19,368 nt of DNA from Chloroflexota bacterium. Lineage in GTDB: Bacteria; Chloroflexota; Limnocylindria; Limnocylindrales; CSP1-4. Each line of letters starts with the position of its first letter. Within the stretch, counting starts at the first letter, position 1. The notes under the pieces were generated by a model. That model ran no database searches and had not been told where the DNA came from. It saw only the letters and a program-made list of their open reading frames with translations. The DNA is taken from the NCBI GenBank assembly GCA_025355255.1, contig JANYAA010000164.1:1-19368 (forward strand). Reading direction: 5' to 3'. The translations under genes were made by a program, and so were the position numbers. This document shows, in pieces, positions 7,142 to 18,586 of this stretch.

Positions 7142-7587
7142 TGCCATTGGAAGTCGCGATCAGGCGCGCCGGTGCAGAAGATGTCCCCGCGGTTGAGGCG
7201 TTGCTGGCCAGCGCCTCGCTGCCGTTGAACGGGGCCGCCGAAGCCGTGGCGCGGGCGGGCGTCGTTGCCCGCGCGGACGGCGCCATCGTTGGCGCCGCAG
7301 CATTGGAGCTCTACGGCGAGGCTGGGCTGCTGCGCTCCGTCGTTGTGGCTCCGGACCACCGCAGGACCGGCGTCGGGCGGGCTGTGGTGGCGGCCGCGGA
7401 AGCACTTGCCCGTGACGAGGGCGTCCGCGACATGTACCTGATCACCGAGACCGCGATCGACTGGTTCCCGCGCCTCGGCTACACCCCGGTGGAGCGCGCC
7501 GTGGCCAACGAGGCCGTCGGCGCGTCCGTCGAGTTCACCACGATCTGCCACGACAAGGGCGTCCCGATGGTGCGTCGCCTGCGATGA
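7141..7587 (+). CDS. arsN2: ArsN2-type GNAT acetyltransferase
   Basis: A 148-residue GNAT-fold protein. It has the N-terminal IRRAGAEDVPAVEALL, a conserved LPLNGAAE segment, VGAAALELYGEAGLLRSVVV (beta4), the acetyl-CoA pyrophosphate loop RRTGVGR (74-80), ITETAIDWFPRLGY and a closing ICHDKGVPMVRRLR. This pattern fits ArsN2, the family routinely found in arsenic operons; the related ArsN1 detoxifies phosphinothricin or methylarsenical-type antibiotics, while the substrate of ArsN2 is less certain. ATG 7141 overlaps the arsM stop by one base and has GAGGGG at about the right distance; a GTG at 7132 is in frame but too close to that site. The coupled arsM-arsN2 pair has no arsenite pump or arsenate reductase in this window. 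Confidence 0.88.
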   Translation: MPLEVAIRRAGAEDVPAVEALLASASLPLNGAAEAVARAGVVARADGAIVGAAALELYGEAGLLRSVVVAPDHRRTGVGRAVVAAAEALARDEGVRDMYLITETAIDWFPRLGYTPVERAVANEAVGASVEFTTICHDKGVPMVRRLR

Positions 7588-7600
7588 GTTTCACTCGCCT

Positions 7601-7620
7601 GGTGTCGCGCAGATGACACC
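7601..7620 (+). terminator. Hairpin after arsN2
   Basis: GGTGTC (7601-7606) / GACACC (7615-7620), an eight-base loop, 14 bases past the arsN2 stop. No T-run follows, so termination is only suggested. Confidence 0.35.
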
Positions 7621-7725
7621 CAGACGGTCGGGCGTGGGGCTGGTGCCATTAGGCCTGCGGGTGCAAGATGACCTGGCTCGGACCCCCCGGGCACAACGCA
7701 GCCACACCAGGACGGGAGAGAACAC

Positions 7726-8031
7726 ATGGCACGCAGCAAGCAGGAGCCGGACGGCATCCGCTCAAGTTCCGCCCGCAGCGGCGAAGACGACGTTGAGGGC
7801 CACGCGATGCACCGCGGCGGCGAGGCCGACGGCGCCAAGTCATCGCTCACCAAGTCCAGCCTGACCCGCAGCTCGGCCCGCAGCCGGGACGAGGACGACG
7901 TCGAGGGCCACTCGATGCTCATCAACCCGGGCCTCAGCCAGGATCTCGCCAAGGCTCGCGACGCCGAGATCCAGCGCTCGGTCCGCGCCCACAACCAGCA
8001 GTCCGAGGCCAAGCGGCCCTTCAAGAAATAG
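7726..8031 (+). CDS. Small hydrophilic protein with two EDDVEGH repeats
   Basis: A 101-residue protein with GGGAG about eight bases before ATG 7726. It lacks a signal peptide, membrane helix or cysteine and is dominated by Ser, Arg, Asp and Lys. Two copies of one unit stand out: SSARSGEDDVEGHAM (14-28) and SSARSRDEDDVEGHSM (49-64), joined by the related SSLTKSSLTRSS. The units differ at synonymous sites (GAA/GAG, GTT/GTC), so the peptide and not just the DNA is being kept. The C-terminus is a likely amphipathic helix (LSQDLAKARDAEIQRSV) ending in a basic RPFKK. The function is unknown; clustered Asp/Glu with His could bind a metal or serve as a docking motif. It is flanked by hairpins on both sides, so probably a single-gene transcript. 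Confidence 0.82.
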   Translation: MARSKQEPDGIRSSSARSGEDDVEGHAMHRGGEADGAKSSLTKSSLTRSSARSRDEDDVEGHSMLINPGLSQDLAKARDAEIQRSVRAHNQQSEAKRPFKK

Positions 8032-8033
8032 CA

Positions 8034-8069
8034 CCCCGGAGCCACCGGGGCACCGGGAGTGCGCCGGTG
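8034..8069 (+). terminator. Overlapping GC-rich hairpins after the EDDVEGH gene
   Basis: CCCCGG (8034-8039) / CCGGGG (8045-8050) starts three bases after the stop codon. A second inverted repeat CACCGG (8051-8056) / CCGGTG (8064-8069) follows directly. There is no T-tract. Together they probably end the transcript and separate it from the Crp-like gene. Confidence 0.5.
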
Positions 8070-8179
8070 GCCAGCCTCCCGATCCGCCAGACGACAACCA
8101 CACGCCCGCCCCCGCACGCTGGAGTAGCATCCGCGAACCGGGGACGGGCGTTTGGCTGTACGTGAGGGACCACAAGGCG

Positions 8180-8896
8180 ATGGCAGGACCCACAGGACCG
8201 GCTGGCGCGGACTTCGCGATTGAGGCGCTGGGCCGCAGCGCGCTGTTCGCCAAGGTTCCGCCAGATGACCTCGCCGCCTGCGCCGCAAGCCTGCGCGTGC
8301 GCCGCTACCGGCGCGGCGAGACGATCTTCCACCAGGGCGATCCGGGGGACTCGCTGTACATCATCGAATCGGGCTCCGTGAAGATCGTCCTGCCGTCACC
8401 TGAGGGCCAGGACAGCGCGATTATCGCCACCCTGGGCCGCGGCGACTTCTTTGGCGAGCTTGCGCTGCTGGACGGTGAGCCGCACTCGGCAACCGCGGTG
8501 GCCATCGATCCGGTAGAGGCGCTGATCCTCCAGCAGGCCCGCTTTGCCGAGTTGCTTGAGGGTCAGCCGGGGCTGCGCAAGGCGCTCATCGCGGGGCTTG
8601 TGGCGGAGCTGCGGCGGCTGACGGGCCACGTGGAGGACCTCCACTTTCTGGACCTCCCCGGGCGTCTGGCCAGCCGCATCATCCGCATCGCGCGCGAGAC
8701 CAGCCCCGGCCAGAACCGTGATGTGCGCATCGAGTGGCGCTTCACGCAGTCCGAGCTTGGCGGAATGATCGGCGGCACGCGCCAGACCGTGAACCGTCTG
8801 CTGTCCGATCTCACGACGCAGGGCCTCGTGCGGCTTGAGGGCGAGACGATGGTGATCCCCGATCTCGACCGGCTGGCGCGGGCGGCTGAGCGGTGA
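8180..8896 (+). CDS. Crp/Fnr-family transcriptional regulator
   Basis: About 238 residues. The N-terminal cyclic-nucleotide-binding beta-barrel includes YRRGETIFHQGDPGDSLYII, SGSVKIVL and RGDFFGELALLDGEPHSATA. A long dimer helix follows, then a winged helix with FTQSELGGMIGGTRQTVNRLL. In cAMP-binding Crp the pocket has Glu and Arg (E. coli Glu72, Arg82); here the Glu of FGEL is kept but the Arg position is His (EPHSA), so nucleotide affinity may be changed or lost. No iron-sulfur cysteines like Fnr. Start: ATG 8180 with GAGGGA ten bases upstream; GTG 8162 in frame would add six residues. The stop is overlapped by the next gene (GTGA, 8893-8896), so it is translationally coupled to the GAF and protease genes. 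It may regulate its own operon or the adjacent cyclase gene. Confidence 0.9.
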   Translation: MAGPTGPAGADFAIEALGRSALFAKVPPDDLAACAASLRVRRYRRGETIFHQGDPGDSLYIIESGSVKIVLPSPEGQDSAIIATLGRGDFFGELALLDGEPHSATAVAIDPVEALILQQARFAELLEGQPGLRKALIAGLVAELRRLTGHVEDLHFLDLPGRLASRIIRIARETSPGQNRDVRIEWRFTQSELGGMIGGTRQTVNRLLSDLTTQGLVRLEGETMVIPDLDRLARAAER

Positions 8897-9717
8897 CGGC
8901 GCGACGGCCGTCGCCGGCCGCGGTGGAGCGCCTGCTCGCGGCCATCGCGCTGCGGGCGGAGGCTGCCCGCCGTCTCGAGGGCTCCGGCGTTGGGGCCGTG
9001 CTGCGCTCAGTGGTGGAGGCCACGGTGGCCCTGTTTGAGGCGGAGGCCTCCTCGATTGCGCTATTCGACCCGGCGAGCGGCCGCTTGGTGTTTGAGGTGG
9101 CGGCGGGCGAGAAGGGCCAGCCCGTGGTGGGGCTGTCCATCGCCCCGGACCAAGGCATCGCGGGCTACGTGTTCACCACTGGCCAGGCGCTGGCACTGTC
9201 GGACGTTGAGAACGATCCGCGCTTTGGCCGCGAGGTTGCAGCGAAGACGGCGTTCCTGCCCCGCTCGATCATCGCTGTGCCGCTGCTGGACGAGCGCGGG
9301 ACGATCGGCGTGCTGGAGGTGCTCGACAAGCGCACCTCGGCCGCGTTCTCACTGCGCGACGTGGAGTTGGCGGCGGTCTTTGCCCGGCAGGCGTCCGTGG
9401 CCATCCGGGCCAGCCGCGTGGAGCGAGACTTGGCCACGCTGCTGGTGACGACGCTGCGCGAGCTGGCGGGTGACGAGGATGCGGCGGCTATCGATGTGCT
9501 CGTCGCGCGGGCCGTTGCGTCGCTGGGCGCAGGCGAGGACGCTGGGCCCTGGCGCCTCGCCGATCTGGTGGCCCGCCTGCGCGATGCGGATCCGGCGCAG
9601 GTGGAGCTGGTGACGGAGCTGCTCGAGGTGCTGGAGCGGCGGGCAGTGCGGTCTAGCCGGGCGCGCCGTGGTGCTCGCAGCCAGCGCGGTTCCTCCGCCG
9701 CCTCGCCCGAGGCGTGA
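8893..9717 (+). CDS. GAF-domain sensory protein
   Basis: A 274-residue cytoplasmic protein with a single GAF domain at about residues 30-175: VVEATVALFEAEASSIALFD, GQPVVGLSIAPDQGIAGYVF, LSDVENDPRFGREVAAKTAF, RSIIAVPLLDERGTIGVLEV and FARQASVAIRASRVER. GAF domains bind cyclic nucleotides, tetrapyrroles or other small ligands and often dimerise; no NKFDE-type signature that would indicate a cGMP phosphodiesterase site is seen. After it comes a helical acidic region (LARLRDADPAQVELVTELLE) and a short disordered basic tail (SSRARRGARSQRG). There is no kinase, cyclase or GGDEF output domain, so its partner is probably encoded nearby. The start GTG 8893 overlaps the Crp stop by four bases and its own stop overlaps the protease start in the same way. 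Confidence 0.88.
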   Translation: MTARRPSPAAVERLLAAIALRAEAARRLEGSGVGAVLRSVVEATVALFEAEASSIALFDPASGRLVFEVAAGEKGQPVVGLSIAPDQGIAGYVFTTGQALALSDVENDPRFGREVAAKTAFLPRSIIAVPLLDERGTIGVLEVLDKRTSAAFSLRDVELAAVFARQASVAIRASRVERDLATLLVTTLRELAGDEDAAAIDVLVARAVASLGAGEDAGPWRLADLVARLRDADPAQVELVTELLEVLERRAVRSSRARRGARSQRGSSAASPEA

Positions 9718-10538
9718 GCGACCTCGCGCTCCCCGCGTGGAGCGAGCCGTTCATCGGGGAGCACCGAGCTGATCTCGCCCGGCTTCGGCCGCTCCCGGGG
9801 CTGGATCGTGCGGCGGTGTTTGGCCATGCCGATGGCAGCGGCATCCGCGTCGCCATCATCGACTCAGGCGTCGAGGGCAGCCATCCCGATGTCGGCGGCC
9901 GGCTGGTCGCCAGCGTGCGGGTGGAGATGGGCTTGGAGGAGCCAATTGTCAGCGATGACGGCGAGGGCCAGGACGTGGTGGGCCACGGGACAGCGTGCGC
10001 GGGGATCATCCATGCGCTCGCCCCGGCCGCGGAGATCATCTCGGTCCGCGTGCTGGGGCCGGACAACCGGGGCAAGGGCGCCGTGTTTGCCGCGGGTCTC
10101 GAGTGGGCCATCGAGCAGGGCGCGAGCGTCGTGAACCTCTCGCTCTCGTCGCGTTCGGACGCCTTCTTCGACGTCTTCCACGATCTCGCGGATCGCGCCT
10201 ACTTCGCCAACGTCCTGTTGGTCTGTGCCGCGAACAATGGCCCGGGGCCCTCGTACCCGTCCCTCTTCGCTGCCGTGGTATCGGTTGCCGCGCATGACCT
10301 CGCCGATCCGTGGGCCTGGTTCTACAACCCCAACCCGCCGGTGGAGTTTGGCGCGCGCGGTGTGGACGTGGAGGTGGCCTGGAAGGGCGGCGGCCGGATG
10401 GTGGCCACGGGCAACTCGTTTGCCGCGCCGCACATCGCGGGTCTGGCTGCGCTGATCCGGTCGCGCCACCCGGACATCTCGCCGTTTGAGGTGAAGACGA
10501 TGCTGGCGGCAACGGCGGGCGCAGGGACGCCGCTCTGA
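9714..10538 (+). CDS. Intracellular subtilisin-like serine protease (S8 family)
   Basis: A 274-residue S8 peptidase with an intact active site: Asp50 (RVAIIDSGVEG), His91 (VVGHGTACAGI), oxyanion Asn174 (VCAANNG) and Ser235 (ATGNSFAAPHIAG). No signal peptide or long propeptide precedes the domain (only about 45 residues: MSDLALPAWSEPFIGEHRAD and on), so it should act in the cytoplasm; known intracellular subtilisins keep a short N-terminal inhibitory extension. The GTG start at 9714 overlaps the GAF gene stop by four bases (GTGA), so protease output is tied to sensor translation. The context suggests a regulated protease under GAF and Crp control, but the substrate is unknown. A C-terminal accessory domain is absent. 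Confidence 0.92.
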   Translation: MSDLALPAWSEPFIGEHRADLARLRPLPGLDRAAVFGHADGSGIRVAIIDSGVEGSHPDVGGRLVASVRVEMGLEEPIVSDDGEGQDVVGHGTACAGIIHALAPAAEIISVRVLGPDNRGKGAVFAAGLEWAIEQGASVVNLSLSSRSDAFFDVFHDLADRAYFANVLLVCAANNGPGPSYPSLFAAVVSVAAHDLADPWAWFYNPNPPVEFGARGVDVEVAWKGGGRMVATGNSFAAPHIAGLAALIRSRHPDISPFEVKTMLAATAGAGTPL

Positions 10539-10617
10539 ACCTTGCCTGCGGTGACCCGTTGCTGACTCCGCCTCCCGGCTGCGGTACTGTGCGCCACACG
10601 GGAGGGCACAGGCAGTC
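10539..10617 (+). promoter_or_regulatory. Promoter and inverted repeat upstream of the cyclase gene
   Basis: A promoter candidate is CTGACT (10562-10567), 17 bases, TACTGT (10585-10590). A perfect 7-bp inverted repeat CCTCCCG (10571-10577) / CGGGAGG (10599-10605) brackets the -10 box, which is a common place for an operator. The right arm contains GGAGG, 12 bases before the ATG at 10618. In read-through RNA from the protease operon this arm would be paired, which could hide the ribosome site; in RNA started at this promoter the left arm would be absent. Confidence 0.4.
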
Positions 10618-13600
10618 ATGACGTGCAGTAGCTGCAGGGCCGCAAACCCCGCCAGCCAGAAGTTCTGCGGGGAGTGCGGAGTTCGGCTCGCGCTCGTCTG
10701 CGCAGCATGCGGGGCCCAGCTGCCGCCGGGTCAGAAGTTCTGTGGCGAGTGTGGCGCGGCCACGAGCGGCGCAGGAGCACCGTCCGCCGACGGACGTGCC
10801 GCTAAGCCGGTCGCTGAGCGGCGCCGGGTCACCGTCCTGTTCGCAGATCTCGTCGGCTTCACGCCCTTTGCCGAAGAGCGCGACGCAGAGGCTGTGCGCG
10901 ACACCCTCAGCCGCTACTTCACCCTCGCCACCGATGTCATCAGCAGGTACGGCGGCACAGTCGAGAAGTTCATCGGCGATGCCGTGATGGCCGTCTGGGG
11001 CGCGCCCACCGCGCACGAGGACGACGCCGAGCGTGCGGTCCGAGCGGGTCTCGAGCTGATTGACGCGATCCCGGCGCTGGGTCCGGGCATCGCCGCGCGC
11101 GCTGGCGTGCTGACCGGCGAGGCCGCAGTGACGCTGGGCGCGCTGAACCAGGGCATGGTCGCTGGCGACCTCGTGAATACCGCCGCCCGGCTGCAGAGCG
11201 TGGCGCCGTCGGGCGCCGTGCTGGTGGGCGAGACGACAAGGGAGGCCGCGAGCCGCGCCATCGTGTTCGAGGAGGCGGGTGCGCAGCTCCTCAAGGGCAA
11301 GGCCGCCCCAGTTGCGGCTTGGCGTGCAGTCCGCGTCGTCGCAGAGCGCCGCGGGACAGGCCGCGGCGACACGCTTGAGGCCCCGTTCGTCGGGCGCGCT
11401 GACGAGCTCCGGCTGCTCAAGGAGCAGTTTCACGCCACGGGCCGTGACCGCCGTGCACGCCTGGCGTCCGTCATCGGCCACGCAGGCATCGGCAAGAGCC
11501 GTCTCGCCTGGGAGCTGGAGAAGTACCTCGACGGCGTCGTCGAGATCGTCCGCTGGCACCGCGGCCGCTCGCTCTCGTACGGCGAGGGGGTCACATTCTG
11601 GGCGCTGGGTGAAATGGTCCGCCGACGAGCGGGGCTAGCCGAAATCGACGATGAGGCGACGTCCCGCGCAACGGTGACGGCGATGCTGGCGCAGTACGTC
11701 GCCGATGCGGACGAGCGGCGCTGGATGGAGCCGCGGCTTCTTGCGCTGCTGGGCCTCGAGGAGACGCCGTCGGGCGGACGCGAAGAGCTGTTCGCGGCAT
11801 GGCGCACGTTCTTCGAGCGGCTCGCCGCCGACGGCACCGTCGTCATGGTCTTCGAGGACCTCCAGTGGGCCGACGACGGCCTGCTGGACTTCATCGAGCA
11901 CATGCTGGACTGGAGCGGCAGCCACCCGCTGTTCGTGGTCTCACTGGCGCGTCCAGAACTGCTTGAGCGGCGGCCGGGCTGGGGGACGGACCGCCGTGGC
12001 GCCGTGGCCGTGCGGCTGGGACCGCTGCCCGATGCCGCTATGCGCGAGCTGCTGGCGGGCCTTGTGCCCGGCCTGCCGGAGGCCGCAGTTGGCCGCATTT
12101 TGGCCCGCGCCGACGGCTACCCGCTGTACGCGGTGGAGACGGTTCGAATGCTGCTGGCCGACGGGCGCCTCGAGCCGTCAGACGGCGCCTATCGGCCCGT
12201 GGGCGATCTGGGCGACATGGAGGTCCCGGGCACGCTGCACGCGCTTGTCGCGGCACGCCTCGACGCGCTGCCGCCGGCCGAGCGGACGCTTGTCCAAGTG
12301 GCATCCGTCCTTGGCCAGACGTTCACTTTGGCCTCCCTCTGCGCTGTGACCGGCGACAGCTCACCCGCGCAGGAGGCGATGCTGGCGAGCCTGCGGCGAC
12401 GCGAGATCCTCGCGATCGAGACAGATCCCCGCGCACCCACGCGCGGTCAGCACGCATTCGTCCAGGCGCTGGTCCGCGAGGTGGCCTACGGGACCCTGTC
12501 GCGCCGCGAGCGGCGTGCGCGCCATCTCGCCGCTGCCCGCTACTTTGAGGGTCTGGGCGACGACGAACTCGCCGGCGTCCTCGCCACCCACTACCTGGCC
12601 GCCTATCGCGCCGCCCCGGAGGGGCCAGAAGGCGAGGCGGCGGCGGCCCAGGCCCGCGTTGCGCTGCGGGGCGCGGCCGATCGGGCCGAGTCGCTCGGCT
12701 CACTCGTCCAGGCAGCTGAGGCGCTGCGTGCCGTACTCGAGGTCACCACGGATCCTCGCGAGCGCGCGGCCACGCTCCAGCGCAAGGGCTGGAATCAGAT
12801 GCTCGCCAGCCGATACGAGGAGGGCGAGCTGGCGCTTAACCAGGCGGTCGATGCGTGGACGGCGCTCGGTGACCGGGGGGCGATGTTGCACACGGTTGCG
12901 CAGATCGCTGGCTCGCAGCTGGCGAGGGCGCAGATCGGGGGGGCAAACGCCACGATCGCGGCGCACCTTGCCGAGGCAGAGGCACTCGCCGACAACCCGG
13001 ACGCGGTCGAGGGATTGGCCTGGTTTGCCGAGGCGGCCGGACGGACGGCGTTTCGGTCGTCCCGCAATGAAGAGGCCATCGTCTGGTGTGACCGAGCCCT
13101 CCGGATCGCGGAGCCGAGGCGCATGGACTACGTCATCTCCATGGCGCTCATCACCAAGGCCGTTGCAATGTCGTACCTCGGCCGCATCCGGGAGGGCAAC
13201 GCACTCCAGATGGGCGCGTATCTCGATGCCGGTTCGCGAGGACAACATGTCGCCCGCCTGCGGGCCGGCGTCAATCTCGCTGCGCAGGGAGTGGACGAGG
13301 ACCCGCGCCGATCGCTCCAGTACACCCTTGAGGGGATCGAGGACGCCCGTCGACTGGGGTTGGGCACGTTCGCGTTCTACCACGCCACCAACCTCGCGCC
13401 TCCAGCGCGGCGTTTGGGCCTGTGGGACATGGCGCTCGCGGCCCTCACCGAAATGGAGGAAGCGGCTGGACCCGAACTGCTTGAGGTCATCGAGCAGGCG
13501 CGAGCAGAACTCCTGGTCTGGCGTGGCGTGGATCCCGGCGACGCGCCCGAGCGCATATTCGCGGCCGCTGAGGCAGCCGAGGATCCGCAGCAGATCGCCA

Positions 13601-14139
13601 ACGGCTACTACGTCGCGATTGACGCGGCGTTCATCCGCGAGGACTACGGGGCCTGCGTTACGCTCGGGCGAAAGTTCATGACCCTCGACGCGGGCTTCGG
13701 CGGGCCTGGAGCATGCGTCCAGATCGGGCGAGCGGCGCTGGCCGCCCAGGATCTCGACCTCGCAGGGGTCGCCCAGGCCCGAGTGAGGACGATGAACAGT
13801 GCTGGTGGTGCGCTCGACAGCGACATGGCACTCCTCGAGGCGGGCATCGCGGCGCTGCACGGGGACGTTGAGGCCGCGGCGAGCGGGTACCGCGCCGCCC
13901 TCGCCGGCTACCGGGAATTCGGCCTTCGCTTCGACTTCGCCCTCGCCGTGGTGGACATGGCTGCGCTGCTGGGTTCTGACCACCCCGCCGTTCGGGCATC
14001 GGTCGCCGAGGCTCGCGAGACCCTCGTCTCACTGGGAGCCGCGCCGATTCTCGCCCGTCTCGACCGGCTGACGGCGGGCAGTGTCGCGGGCGCCAAGCCG
14101 GCAGGGCAGGCGTCCACGCCTTCATCGATCTCGGTGTAG
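10618..14139 (+). CDS. Zinc-ribbon / class III adenylate cyclase / STAND-type ATPase / helical repeat protein
   Basis: A 1173-residue multidomain signalling protein. (1) Double zinc ribbon: Cys3, 6, 17, 20 and Cys28, 31, 42, 45. (2) Class III cyclase, about 66-240: metal-binding Asp77 (VLFADLVGFT) and Asp121 (KFIGDAVMAVWGAP); Lys117 and Asp184 specify adenine; Asn187 and Arg191 (GDLVNTAARLQ) stabilise the transition state. All are intact, so cAMP production is expected. (3) AAA/STAND ATPase from about 257: FVGRADEL, Walker A GHAGIGKS (287-294), Walker B VVMVFEDLQW (408-417). (4) Alpha-helical, TPR-like C-terminal half (about 620-1150). The layout is a known family in Actinomycetota and Chloroflexota, acting as a switch in which the ATPase and repeats sense a partner and control the cyclase. 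It lies 79 bases after the protease gene, with its own promoter candidate, and is a possible cAMP source for the nearby Crp-like protein. Confidence 0.93.
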   Translation: MTCSSCRAANPASQKFCGECGVRLALVCAACGAQLPPGQKFCGECGAATSGAGAPSADGRAAKPVAERRRVTVLFADLVGFTPFAEERDAEAVRDTLSRYFTLATDVISRYGGTVEKFIGDAVMAVWGAPTAHEDDAERAVRAGLELIDAIPALGPGIAARAGVLTGEAAVTLGALNQGMVAGDLVNTAARLQSVAPSGAVLVGETTREAASRAIVFEEAGAQLLKGKAAPVAAWRAVRVVAERRGTGRGDTLEAPFVGRADELRLLKEQFHATGRDRRARLASVIGHAGIGKSRLAWELEKYLDGVVEIVRWHRGRSLSYGEGVTFWALGEMVRRRAGLAEIDDEATSRATVTAMLAQYVADADERRWMEPRLLALLGLEETPSGGREELFAAWRTFFERLAADGTVVMVFEDLQWADDGLLDFIEHMLDWSGSHPLFVVSLARPELLERRPGWGTDRRGAVAVRLGPLPDAAMRELLAGLVPGLPEAAVGRILARADGYPLYAVETVRMLLADGRLEPSDGAYRPVGDLGDMEVPGTLHALVAARLDALPPAERTLVQVASVLGQTFTLASLCAVTGDSSPAQEAMLASLRRREILAIETDPRAPTRGQHAFVQALVREVAYGTLSRRERRARHLAAARYFEGLGDDELAGVLATHYLAAYRAAPEGPEGEAAAAQARVALRGAADRAESLGSLVQAAEALRAVLEVTTDPRERAATLQRKGWNQMLASRYEEGELALNQAVDAWTALGDRGAMLHTVAQIAGSQLARAQIGGANATIAAHLAEAEALADNPDAVEGLAWFAEAAGRTAFRSSRNEEAIVWCDRALRIAEPRRMDYVISMALITKAVAMSYLGRIREGNALQMGAYLDAGSRGQHVARLRAGVNLAAQGVDEDPRRSLQYTLEGIEDARRLGLGTFAFYHATNLAPPARRLGLWDMALAALTEMEEAAGPELLEVIEQARAELLVWRGVDPGDAPERIFAAAEAAEDPQQIANGYYVAIDAAFIREDYGACVTLGRKFMTLDAGFGGPGACVQIGRAALAAQDLDLAGVAQARVRTMNSAGGALDSDMALLEAGIAALHGDVEAAASGYRAALAGYREFGLRFDFALAVVDMAALLGSDHPAVRASVAEARETLVSLGAAPILARLDRLTAGSVAGAKPAGQASTPSSISV

Positions 14140-15275: not shown

Positions 15276-16604
15276 CTAGGGCTCGGGGAGCGGCTCCAAG
15301 ACTCGCGCGCCGCCGTCCGCAACCACGTTGTCCTCGCGACGCCGCGGATCAACCGGCCGCAGCAGCAGCGCGCCCAGCAGGAAGAACACCGCACCAGCGG
15401 CCATTGCCGCGCGCGGACCCGCCGCCCCCGGCAGGAACGTGAGCAGCGGTCCGCCCACGATCAGCGCCACAGGCCCCGCCGACGCCGTGGCCACGTTGCT
15501 CATACCCATGAACCGGCCCGACGCGGCTTTCGGGATGATGTCCGTCATCAGCGCCCAGTCCACCGCCAAGAACGACCCGGCGCCAACAGCCACCAGCAGG
15601 ATCCCCACCATGGAGACCGCCATCACCGGCGACATCACCAGGATCACCATGCCGACGATGCCGCTCACGCAGGCCGCATAGATCACGGCCTTGCGGCCAT
15701 ATCGGTCTGCCAGCCGCGCCGACGGGATGGACACGACGAGGATCGACACGCCGATGAGCACGCTTGCCAGCGTCCCCCAGAGCGACTTGTCCGAGTCGTT
15801 CAGGCCCAGCGAGCGCTCCATGTACAGGACGTTGAGGTTGTAGATCACGCCCACGCCAGCGAGGATGAACAGGCGGGACGCCACCAGCCAGACGTAGCTG
15901 CGCTCGCGGAGGATGTCGGTTCCCCAGGCCTCCAAGGCAATCGCCTTCCAGGATTTGCCCTCGCGCGGCTTTGGCTTGCGGCCCTCGCGCACCCAGAAGA
16001 TCGTGCCCATGGCGGTGGAGAACTCGATGATCCCCACGCCGATGGTGGGCAGCGTGAAGTCGCGCCCTAGCAGGAACCCCGAGTAGGCGAAGGCCTGGCC
16101 GCCGATGACGCCTAGCACGGTCATCACGCCCACCAGCGCGCTCGCGGTGCCCACCTGCTTGGCCGGAACGAGATCTGGGACGTACCCCTGAAACGGGCCT
16201 TGGGCAAAGTTGGAGCTGAACTGGAGCAGGATCAGGAAGGCCACGATGGCGACGAAGCTGTTGGACATCGCGATGCCGATGAGGAAGAACACGTCCAGCG
16301 TTGCGCCGATGGCGATGTACGGCTTGCGGCGGCCCCAGCGGCTCATCGTGTAGTCGCTGATGGAGCCCACGGTTGGCTGGACGATGATGGCGATCAGGAC
16401 CGCGAGGATCTTGGCGACCGCCAATGCGATGCCGGTCCCCTCCTCGCCCACGATGCCGGGCATCCGCGCCTGGAGGACAACGCCGTCAAGGGCTCCCCAG
16501 ATGCCGTTGATGCCCAGCCAGTAGATCGACAGCTGGAGCAGCTGCGTCCACGGCAACACGGCGGTGGGGCGGTTGGCGTCCGACTCGGGCGGTACGGTCT
16601 CCAT
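15276..16604 (-). CDS. MFS transporter (GPH/SLC45-like)
   Basis: A 442-residue integral membrane protein with about twelve hydrophobic segments in two halves. MFS motif A appears in loop 2-3 as DYTMSRWGRRKP (84-95) and again in the second half as DRYGRKAV. The long form with RWGRRKPYI resembles the GPH and SLC45-type sugar:cation symporters, but drug or metabolite export cannot be excluded. A central cytoplasmic loop (EGRKPKPREGKSWKAIALEA) separates the halves, and the C-terminus is a soluble Arg/Glu-rich tail. I chose ATG 16604 because GAGGGG lies seven bases upstream; an in-frame ATG at 16625 has no ribosome site. It converges with the F420-type oxidoreductase and is 212 bases downstream of the PrsW stop on the same strand; the gap holds a hairpin, so probably a separate transcript. 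Confidence 0.9.
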   Translation of the reverse strand: METVPPESDANRPTAVLPWTQLLQLSIYWLGINGIWGALDGVVLQARMPGIVGEEGTGIALAVAKILAVLIAIIVQPTVGSISDYTMSRWGRRKPYIAIGATLDVFFLIGIAMSNSFVAIVAFLILLQFSSNFAQGPFQGYVPDLVPAKQVGTASALVGVMTVLGVIGGQAFAYSGFLLGRDFTLPTIGVGIIEFSTAMGTIFWVREGRKPKPREGKSWKAIALEAWGTDILRERSYVWLVASRLFILAGVGVIYNLNVLYMERSLGLNDSDKSLWGTLASVLIGVSILVVSIPSARLADRYGRKAVIYAACVSGIVGMVILVMSPVMAVSMVGILLVAVGAGSFLAVDWALMTDIIPKAASGRFMGMSNVATASAGPVALIVGGPLLTFLPGAAGPRAAMAAGAVFFLLGALLLRPVDPRRREDNVVADGGARVLEPLPEP

Positions 16605-16660
16605 CGCAGATCCCCTCTGCTCCATTGCCCGTTGGCGATGTCCTCCACGCTACGGCGCGC

Positions 16661-16816: not shown

Positions 16817-18586
16817 TTAGCGGGGCAGGAGCCTCCGGCCGTCCACCCAACCCGTCCAGCCGTTGACGGCAACGACGCGTACCCAGTCGCCGGCCTGCTC
16901 TGCGACCAGGAGGTCGAGGCCCGGAGCCAGCGTGACGACGGGCTGACGCGACGGGTCCGGGTAGTCCCAGGCTGGCATGCCCGCGGCGGGGACGCGCGCG
17001 TTGGGCGTCCAGACGGGCGCCGCGGGGGTCACGAGCTGAGGCGCGACGGGTGCCGGTTGGGGGATTGGTTCGGCAACCGGTGCAACTTGGACCGCCGGCT
17101 CAGGCGCCGGCTGCGGGGCAGGCTGCACGACAGGCGCGGGCTCCACCGCCGGGGCAGGCGTCGGGGCCGGCTCGGGTGCGAGCTGGGCGACCGGAGCGGG
17201 CTGGCCCCAACCGGGGATCGCAGCGGTCGGCTGGCCCGGCGCTGGCGCGGGCTGGGCAGCGGGCGCTGATTGCGCGGCGGGCGCAGCTTGGCCCCAACCG
17301 GACGTGGCGACGGGCGCCGCGACGGCCGCTGGCACCGCTACGGTCCCCGGTGCAGCGCCCCAAACGGGCGCAGCCGCACCCGGCACGCCAGCCGCGAACC
17401 CGCCCACTGCGGGCATCGCGTCAAGCTGAGCCTTCAGCTGCCGCACATGGTCCGCACGTTGGGAAACCTCGGGCGCATCCTCGGAGCCTAGGCGGCTCAT
17501 CGCCATCGCCAACTGGATCTGTTCCCGCTGGATCTGGCCCTTGAGCTTGCCGGCCATCGGCCCCTTCGCCCGCTTCGCTGCCCCACGCGCCTTTCGGCGC
17601 GCAAGGAGCCCGCCAAGCTCGGCGAGATCAGCAGTCGTGATCGAGCCGTCGTCGTTGAAGGTCTGGGTGAGGGAGCCAAACCAAGCCTGCTCGCGGCGGC
17701 GAGCCAGCCGGATGAGGATCACGAGGCCCACGAGCATCGGCACACCCTTGACGGTGGCCATCACATAGAAGCCGACGATGCCGTCACCGCCGATGCCGGA
17801 GAAGATGGGCGAGTTCCACAAGAAGTGGGCCGCAACGCCACAAGCCGCGAGCCCGACGCCCACAAGCAGGCGCCGCATCCACGGCTGGTCCGTGCGAATG
17901 GTGTAGTAGGCGATGCCCATGCCGGACAGGCCGGTGTACAGGAAGTGGCTGTAGGGGCCAGCGCCCAGGATCCGAATCAGGAACATCTGGAACAGGCTGC
18001 CGTATGAGCCAGATTCGCCAAAGGCCCGGACGAAGTAGAAGACGTCCTCAACCAGCAGGAAGCCGATGCCCACCATGGCGCCCCAGATGAATCCGTCGAG
18101 CATGTCGTCCATCTCGGGCCGGGCCAGCGACACGAGCAGGATCACGCCCAGGGCTTTGAAACCCTCTTCGACAAAGGGCGCCGTGAGCGCAGGGCTCCAG
18201 GTCTGGGTGAAGTTCGTGTCGCCCGTCAGCTTGTAGATGATCTCCGCGAGCGGCGTATTGGTGTACATCGACAGCGCCGTGGCAGCAATCCCGCCCCAGG
18301 CCACGGCGGCGACGAGGATGCTCACGGGCTCGCGCTCGTAGGTGTCAATGAGGTAGATCACCGCAATGACGGGGATCGCGTAGGGGGTCAGCATCATGAC
18401 CGTTGTCAGCCAGGCATTGGGCACGGCCGACAGCATCTGGAGCTGCTGCGACAGGAAGTCCAGCCCGGTCAGCACGAGCGTGGCGACAAACAGCCAGAAC
18501 GCGGGCTGGTGGCGCTGGATGAACGAGGTCTGGTAGCCCCAGCGGGTCGAGGGCCCGGCGTCAAACAGGTTCGGAAGCGTGCTCAT
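16817..18586 (-). CDS. PrsW-family intramembrane protease with Pro/Ala-rich linker and SH3-like C-terminus
   Basis: A 589-residue protein. Residues about 28-320 form the multi-pass PrsW domain (CPBP/type II CAAX-protease superfamily): FVEEGFK (Glu140-Glu141), DGFIWGAMVGIGFLLVED (Glu180), YSHFLYTGL (His214) and AAHFLWN (His254), the expected metalloprotease residues. In Bacillus, PrsW makes the site-1 cut in an anti-sigma factor. A cytoplasmic helical basic region follows (LARRKARGAAKRAKG), with a leucine-rich coiled-coil-like stretch, then about 140 residues of Pro/Ala/Val/Gln (PVAQPAPV-type repeats), and finally an SH3b-like module (APGLDLLVAEQAGDWVRVVA, GWTGWVDGRRLL). The fused tail is absent from the founding PrsW. 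It starts at ATG 18586, three bases after the upstream gene, so one operon. Confidence 0.88.
   Translation of the reverse strand: MSTLPNLFDAGPSTRWGYQTSFIQRHQPAFWLFVATLVLTGLDFLSQQLQMLSAVPNAWLTTVMMLTPYAIPVIAVIYLIDTYEREPVSILVAAVAWGGIAATALSMYTNTPLAEIIYKLTGDTNFTQTWSPALTAPFVEEGFKALGVILLVSLARPEMDDMLDGFIWGAMVGIGFLLVEDVFYFVRAFGESGSYGSLFQMFLIRILGAGPYSHFLYTGLSGMGIAYYTIRTDQPWMRRLLVGVGLAACGVAAHFLWNSPIFSGIGGDGIVGFYVMATVKGVPMLVGLVILIRLARRREQAWFGSLTQTFNDDGSITTADLAELGGLLARRKARGAAKRAKGPMAGKLKGQIQREQIQLAMAMSRLGSEDAPEVSQRADHVRQLKAQLDAMPAVGGFAAGVPGAAAPVWGAAPGTVAVPAAVAAPVATSGWGQAAPAAQSAPAAQPAPAPGQPTAAIPGWGQPAPVAQLAPEPAPTPAPAVEPAPVVQPAPQPAPEPAVQVAPVAEPIPQPAPVAPQLVTPAAPVWTPNARVPAAGMPAWDYPDPSRQPVVTLAPGLDLLVAEQAGDWVRVVAVNGWTGWVDGRRLLPR

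Follow-up and report, generated by a model that had tools for sequence, protein, structure and literature searches.

A GAF-partnered subtilisin-type protease in Chloroflexota as a probable peptide-maturation protease recognizing a short acidic motif

The contig JANYAA010000164.1 of a Chloroflexota bacterium, analyzed here in its entirety and called the window (19,368 bases of a 2.73-Mb genome), encodes an S8-family (subtilisin-type) protease paired with a GAF-domain protein, in a row with a Crp/Fnr-type regulator, a cyclase-ATPase and a small repeat peptide. The S8 protease together with its GAF partner is probably a cytoplasmic peptide-maturation protease that recognizes the motif [DE][VT]xG[HY] and is controlled by its nucleotide-binding neighbors. 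The elements of the row, with positions in the window, are as follows.

7603–7618, no strand: palindrome TGTCGCGCAGATGACA (TGTC-N8-GACA), putative Crp operator of the peptide gene
7726–8031, plus strand: repeat peptide gene, 101 residues, putative precursor or substrate, with two EDDVEGH motifs and a basic C-terminal tail
8162–8896, plus strand: Crp/Fnr-type regulator gene with a cyclic nucleotide-binding (CNB) domain and a helix-turn-helix (Pfam cNMP_binding and HTH_Crp_2); an alternative ATG at 8180 is the start given in the first-pass annotation
8893–9717, plus strand: GAF-domain protein gene, partner of S8 (Pfam GAF)
9714–10538, plus strand: cytoplasmic S8 (subtilisin-type) protease gene (Pfam Peptidase_S8; triad D50/H91/S235)
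10618–14139, plus strand: cyclase-ATPase gene, double zinc ribbon, class III cyclase and AAA_16 (Pfam DZR, Guanylate_cyc and AAA_16)

The first-pass annotation had joined the regulator, GAF and S8 genes by two GTGA overlaps; these are present at 8893–8896 and 9714–9717 with the frames open, and the cyclase gene does follow S8 after a gap of 79 bases. Assignment of the protease to the S8 family rests on a Peptidase_S8 domain (Pfam E 1.3e-30), a subtilisin fold (structure model with a predicted local distance difference test score of 87; best Foldseek matches to subtilisin BPN') and the D/H/S triad. The triad had been described as intact, and Asp50, His91 and Ser235 are all present in conserved alignment columns (D in 62/62, H in 62/62 and S in 61/62 sequences, the remaining one having a gap). 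Judged by eye, the N terminus has no hydrophobic export segment, in keeping with the earlier statement that an export signal is absent. This protease is the single Peptidase_S8 match of the window genome, which is 83% complete. Named homologues include Chloroflexi metagenome-assembled genomes (MAGs) and ‘Candidatus Limnocylindrales’. The structure model of the GAF protein averaged 71 and was good in the core only, and its nearest solved structures were an HD-GYP GAF, Lcd1 GAF-cAMP, and the GAFs of PDE10A and PDE2A. It carries DK...F...D-x-E at the place of the NKFDE-type motif (NK...F...DE), which we take to be the motif of GAF domains that bind cyclic nucleoside monophosphates. The regulator belongs to the Crp/Fnr family by its CNB domain and Crp-type helix-turn-helix (Pfam). 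The cyclase had been credited with all catalytic residues; both metal-binding Asp residues, the Lys, the Asn and the Arg are there, and the exception is the adenine-selecting position, usually Asp or Thr, which is Met in the window and varies among M, L, R, I and F across 10 aligned sequences. Seven Guanylate_cyc matches occur in the window genome.

Recurrence of the row was assessed across 177 genomes from the class to which the window belongs (Limnocylindria), with S8 orthologues defined by E < 1e-40, where the ranked matches show a natural break, and GAF orthologues by E ≤ 1e-25; one locus was taken per S8-bearing genome, giving 60 loci including the window, and neighbors were counted with our own profiles on stop-to-stop frames. 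S8 orthologues occur in 60 of the 177 genomes, GAF orthologues also in 60, and the two sets of genomes are identical. The GAF gene lies within 400 bases of S8 in 59/60 loci, the exception sitting at a contig end. A CNB gene is found within 6 kb in 55/60 loci, and a major facilitator superfamily (MFS) transporter with a C-terminal CNB domain in 37/60. Crp, GAF and S8 genes were all found in 50 loci, in every one on the same strand and with Crp upstream of GAF; the distance from the Crp stop to the GAF frame is ≤15 bases in 29/50 and >150 bases in 20/50, and where there is a Crp–GAF gap it contains a small open reading frame (ORF) with tandem D-D-[VT]-E-G-H motifs. The Crp–GAF–S8 grouping thus extends far beyond near-identical genomes and is not a product of chance. 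Whether the cyclase travels with it had also been raised. A cyclase gene lies within 6 kb in 13/60 loci versus 2.4–3.3 expected from genome counts (Poisson values 1.6e-6 to 3.7e-5, overstated since the genomes are related), so that it is near the trio more often than expected but in a minority of loci, with varying side and strand; a same-strand cyclase directly behind S8 occurs only in the window and its closest relative, and 11 of the 13 cyclase loci are arranged differently. Nine representatives of other recurrent neighbor clusters were scanned; five matched no Pfam family, and the remainder comprised an M24 peptidase, a methylguanine methyltransferase-type protein, a ketoacyl synthase and a tRNA synthetase.

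Outside the class, 53 other loci were compared, of which 49 were fetched by search and four were added (Planobispora, an Actinomycetota MAG, Miltoncostaea and Gemmatirosa). The searches covered 400 Chloroflexota genomes, class members included (48 with an S8 match at E ≤ 1e-28; 23 loci fetched), and 394 genomes of the Planobispora class (26 with a match at E ≤ 1e-40; 26 loci fetched). Distant S8 paralogues (L070–L075), Salibacterium (L038, L039) and copies of class genomes (L032–L035) were left out of the counts, and L138 and L154 share 4.4 kb of one genome. GAF adjoins S8 in 49/53 of these loci, the exceptions being Gemmatirosa, L154, and L152 and L155 at contig ends. Gene order varies, many loci having GAF–S8 and others S8–GAF, and 11 Planobispora-type (Actinomycetota) loci are ordered cyclase-ATPase, S8, GAF; Planobispora has six cyclase matches in 9 Mb. 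In Miltoncostaea, one strand carries cyclase-ATPase-kinase, sigma-70, S8, GAF and MFS-CNB genes with others interspersed. The sigma-70-family gene there (L104 7411–7947) has a similar counterpart on the opposite strand in the Actinomycetota MAG (L037 ~7415–8336), and on the Gemmatirosa plasmid (L105 6478–15097) a GAF-less S8 relative stands between a borderline sigma-70 region 2 gene and two CHAT genes. In L139 (9971–13408), an ABC transporter with a C-terminal CNB domain adjoins GAF–S8, and EDVQGY is present in a small ORF close by. Of 8,000 scored S8 candidates, 7,945 matched at E ≤ 1e-30, which does not imply orthology of all.

The candidate substrate is the repeat peptide, whose gene had been overlooked in the first-pass annotation and lies 130 bases upstream of the Crp gene. 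GGGAG stands 7 bases ahead of its ATG, the DDVEGH codons lie at 7786–7803 and 7894–7911, and the tail (SMLINPGLSQDLAKAR...) has a net charge of +4. Over the C-terminal 45 codons, six synonymous and three nonsynonymous changed codons separate the window from locus L076. The peptide matches no Pfam or NCBIfam family; 77 homologues were found in a large protein collection, the named ones all called hypothetical. Short ORFs with [DE][VTA]xGH occur in 49/60 class loci, and 43/60 have at least two copies in one ORF. The corresponding counts were 8 and 0 with the motif reversed and 3–13 and 0 with five residue shuffles, and eight control loci gave 2 forward versus 3 reversed. Multi-copy motif genes also stand out in the 53 other loci (13 versus 1 reversed and 0 in shuffles). 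Across whole genomes, the DNA pattern for [DE]D(V/T/A/I/M)EGH averages 4.2 matches in the 60 module genomes and 1.0 in the 117 others, with 3 and 20 matches in total, respectively, for its reversed control; in some genomes further peptide copies are on other contigs, such as an eight-match array on contig 5 of G021. Likeness of the inter-motif segments is 0.74 within a gene and 0.28 between genes (27 genes with at least three copies each), the pattern of a multi-copy precursor in which the recognition site stays constant and the product varies. All 85 segments contain Lys or Arg, and a description of them as basic was dropped, net charge being positive in 29, zero in 28 and negative in 28. A second peptide type has one D[VT]EGH followed by a conserved Arg/Lys-rich tail (L051 1610–1879, L080 2969–3178, L090 3595–3834 and others); the window peptide fuses both types, having repeat motifs plus a basic tail.

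The TGTC-N8-GACA palindrome occurs at 58 sites in the 547 kb of the 60 class loci and lies ≤250 bases upstream of 39/67 peptide ORFs versus 1.65 expected from its density in all loci; 27 of these 39 sites are 97–135 bases before the peptide start. The window site (7603–7618) is one of four places in its genome with the narrower form TGTCRN6YGACA. Around the other three no multi-copy motif ORF was seen, and one single-copy match is found in L196. The half-site spacing resembles that of Crp operators and the gene next door encodes a Crp protein, which makes control of the peptide gene by Crp through this palindrome likely.

A similar motif accompanies the pair in a different biosynthetic setting. 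In nine loci of seven non-class Chloroflexota genomes, a LanKC-type enzyme adjoins S8–GAF; one, scanned by Pfam, has RamC_N, kinase and LANC_like domains, and the others match it at ≥371 bits (L138 in pieces). Five of the nine have the order LanKC–GAF–S8–MFS. All nine encode small precursor-like ORFs in which [DE]V[SATEQ]GY immediately precedes a variable stretch that contains Cys, as with LSGEVSGY-LVDQCSLTCVLTSCTITSL in L142 and GDVEGY-TYTVSWLTCCCIRTSCCLQFS in L143, and in the 53 other loci this motif was found 33 times forward and 2 times reversed. The leaders appear Nif11-like by eye, and two that were scanned against Pfam matched no family. This position of [DE]VxGY suggests cleavage at the leader–core border. 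Because DVEGH and DVEGY thus stand in parallel at both kinds of precursor, the motif is read as the site of the shared S8–GAF pair. A lanthipeptide reading of the window itself was rejected: none of the 177 class genomes has a LANC_like (PF05147) match, and the class repeat peptides are for that reason not considered lanthipeptides.

From the pairing, motif, repeats, palindrome and neighbors we infer the following course of events. The 7726–8031 gene would yield a precursor with DD[VT]EGH copies, short gene-specific segments between them and, in the window's clade, a basic tail. S8 with GAF would recognize [DE]-[VT]-x-G-[HY] and cut beside it, most likely after His/Tyr, freeing the segments. 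Subtilisins accept aromatic residues ahead of the cut site, which fits a cut at that point. Crp on the TGTC-N8-GACA palindrome would control the precursor gene, and GAF, whose ligand is probably a cyclic nucleotide or something similar, would switch or dock S8 in response. Where linked, the cyclase-ATPase may provide the messenger, which would set S8 activity through GAF and precursor supply through Crp, with CNB transporters setting export. The peptides probably leave the cell through a transporter, which in many relatives is an MFS or ABC protein that carries a CNB domain itself. An MFS gene of the window (15276–16625) was rejected as the exporter, having no CNB match and lying on the opposite strand.

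A fuller form of this proposal is put forward more tentatively, being possible rather than probable. It describes a multi-copy, prohormone-like system in which tandem propeptides, perhaps unmodified, would be cut in the cytoplasm by a nucleotide-set S8–GAF pair and the peptides exported through nucleotide-gated transporters to serve as signals or toxins specific to the species, the pair having been recruited elsewhere in Chloroflexota as a lanthipeptide leader peptidase.

Several observations weigh against assigning the pair to peptide maturation under nucleotide control. The motif was first spotted in some of the loci counted and the palindrome in four, the window among them, so neither count was blind, and for the motif the weight lies on copy number and the reversed control. 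Eleven of the 60 class loci have no motif ORF, five on contigs <5.3 kb and six with 8–12 kb. In the 53 other loci the one-copy motif (20 versus 14 reversed and 7–15 in shuffles) is barely above its controls, and the 117 module-free genomes also exceed the DNA-pattern control (121 versus 20). Neither a multi-copy nor a GY motif ORF is present in the 11 Planobispora-type loci, Miltoncostaea or Gemmatirosa; single-copy matches, one per locus, occur in four of the 11. The S8 genes of Gemmatirosa and L154 have no GAF neighbor, and 27/53 other loci lack a CNB gene within 6 kb. In the regulator, the CNB pocket position that is usually, as we assume, an Arg contacting the phosphate is His in the window (29 R and 22 H among 51). 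In the window genome, TGTCRN6YGACA occurs at 4 places versus 3 for its reversed control, so that its genome-wide frequency carries no weight by itself, and there is no MFS-CNB exporter.

The strongest competing explanation, which we nonetheless regard as unlikely, is that the cyclase messenger, acting via GAF and Crp, activates intracellular proteolysis directed at the cell's proteins during stress or defence, the peptide being incidental. It would suit the cyclase–S8–GAF order of the 11 Planobispora-type loci, which have no multi-copy peptide, the Miltoncostaea replicon, whose sole cyclase match sits in the S8–GAF gene row, and the Gemmatirosa plasmid, whose only cyclase match is ~6.4 kb from an S8 gene next to CHAT genes (one was scanned and is TPR-CHAT). 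The first-pass model of proteolysis controlled by a small ligand gains from the recurrence of the trio, the enrichment of cyclases and the likeness of GAF to cAMP/cGMP GAFs. Its placement in a stress or phage-defence cascade is not supported: the extra partners that recur, in the majority of class loci and in many elsewhere, are precursor-like peptides, lanthipeptide synthetases and CNB transporters, which point to peptide maturation rather than defence, and a PADLOC scan of four window proteins and two relatives gave matches that appear to be at the domain level only. Somewhat less likely again is that the repeat peptide is a trans-acting inhibitor, chaperone or tether that holds S8 inactive until GAF senses its ligand. 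Bacterial subtilisins are often held by prosegments, peptide and S8 are tightly linked, and the repeats could bind several S8–GAF units. However, the similar motif at the expected leader–core border in the LanKC loci suits cleavage, and the gene-specific, homogenized segments are as in multi-copy precursors. That the neighbors share ancestry but no common function is very improbable: most loci come from related genomes, and only the window and its nearest relative have the cyclase directly behind S8, but other Chloroflexota and Actinomycetota have the same pair in reversed order and with different third genes, and S8 and GAF are present in identical sets of genomes.

Among described systems, the nearest function to the proposed maturation module is that of AmyP of Bacillus amyloliquefaciens, a class III lanthipeptide S8 protease associated with the motif (T/S/A)EVE (review PMC10885120). 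Compared by description only, AmyP shares action on ribosomal precursors with a short acidic-Val motif and, with the LanKC-group relatives, a LanKC partner; the accessible part of PMC10885120 mentions no GAF partner and no CNB, Crp or cyclase surroundings. Of the features of the AmyP type, the S8 triad is present and LanKC/LANC_like is found in the nine other loci and not in the window's class, which has multi-copy DD[VT]EGH precursors instead. S8 matches NCBIfam QhpE at 111 bits, below the cut-off of 165, and mycosin and PatA at 130 (cut-off 278.75) and 32 bits (cut-off 421); QhpE and PatA/PatG are peptide-maturation S8 proteases, none of whose pathway partners was recognized among the scanned neighbors. 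The cyclase reached 185 bits against TIGR03903 (cut-off 706) with no TOMM enzyme among the scanned neighbors, and a TOMM reading was rejected. Bacillus intracellular subtilisins share the fold and, by eye, the absence of an export signal, but the window S8 sits in an operon with GAF, Crp and peptide. Pycsar and VMAP–MoxR systems likewise place a class III cyclase beside protease and CNB proteins (PycC cyclase match E 1.3e-18). In contrast to Pycsar, to which the row does not belong, the CNB protein of the window is a helix-turn-helix regulator and not a TIR or membrane effector, and scanned relatives have Crp regulators or CNB transporters rather than TIR; no vWA–MoxR–VMAP triad was seen, and the S8 passage in the accessible part of PMC7159879 concerns a NucA context. 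No GAF–S8 pair appears in the accessible parts of PMC7159879, PMC8960859, PMC6497799 and PMC10206099, and no report of a GAF–S8 peptide module was found in the open-access literature, bioRxiv and most subscription journals being outside the search. The arrangement is apparently undescribed.

Two further genes of the window lie apart from the row, both on the minus strand: an ice-binding-like protein near the contig end (275–1348; Pfam E 6e-57) and a PrsW-type intramembrane protease of 589 residues (16817–18586) with a weak, sub-cut-off C-terminal SH3-like match.

If peptide maturation by S8 and GAF is correct, a large S8 group would gain a partner as well as a substrate and the motif by which it is recognized, and ribosomal peptide maturation would be tied to cyclic-nucleotide signaling. 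The motif makes the putative precursors findable, as tandem peptides that have no recognized modifying enzyme in their vicinity, and it would supply a candidate leader peptidase to one group of lanthipeptide clusters.

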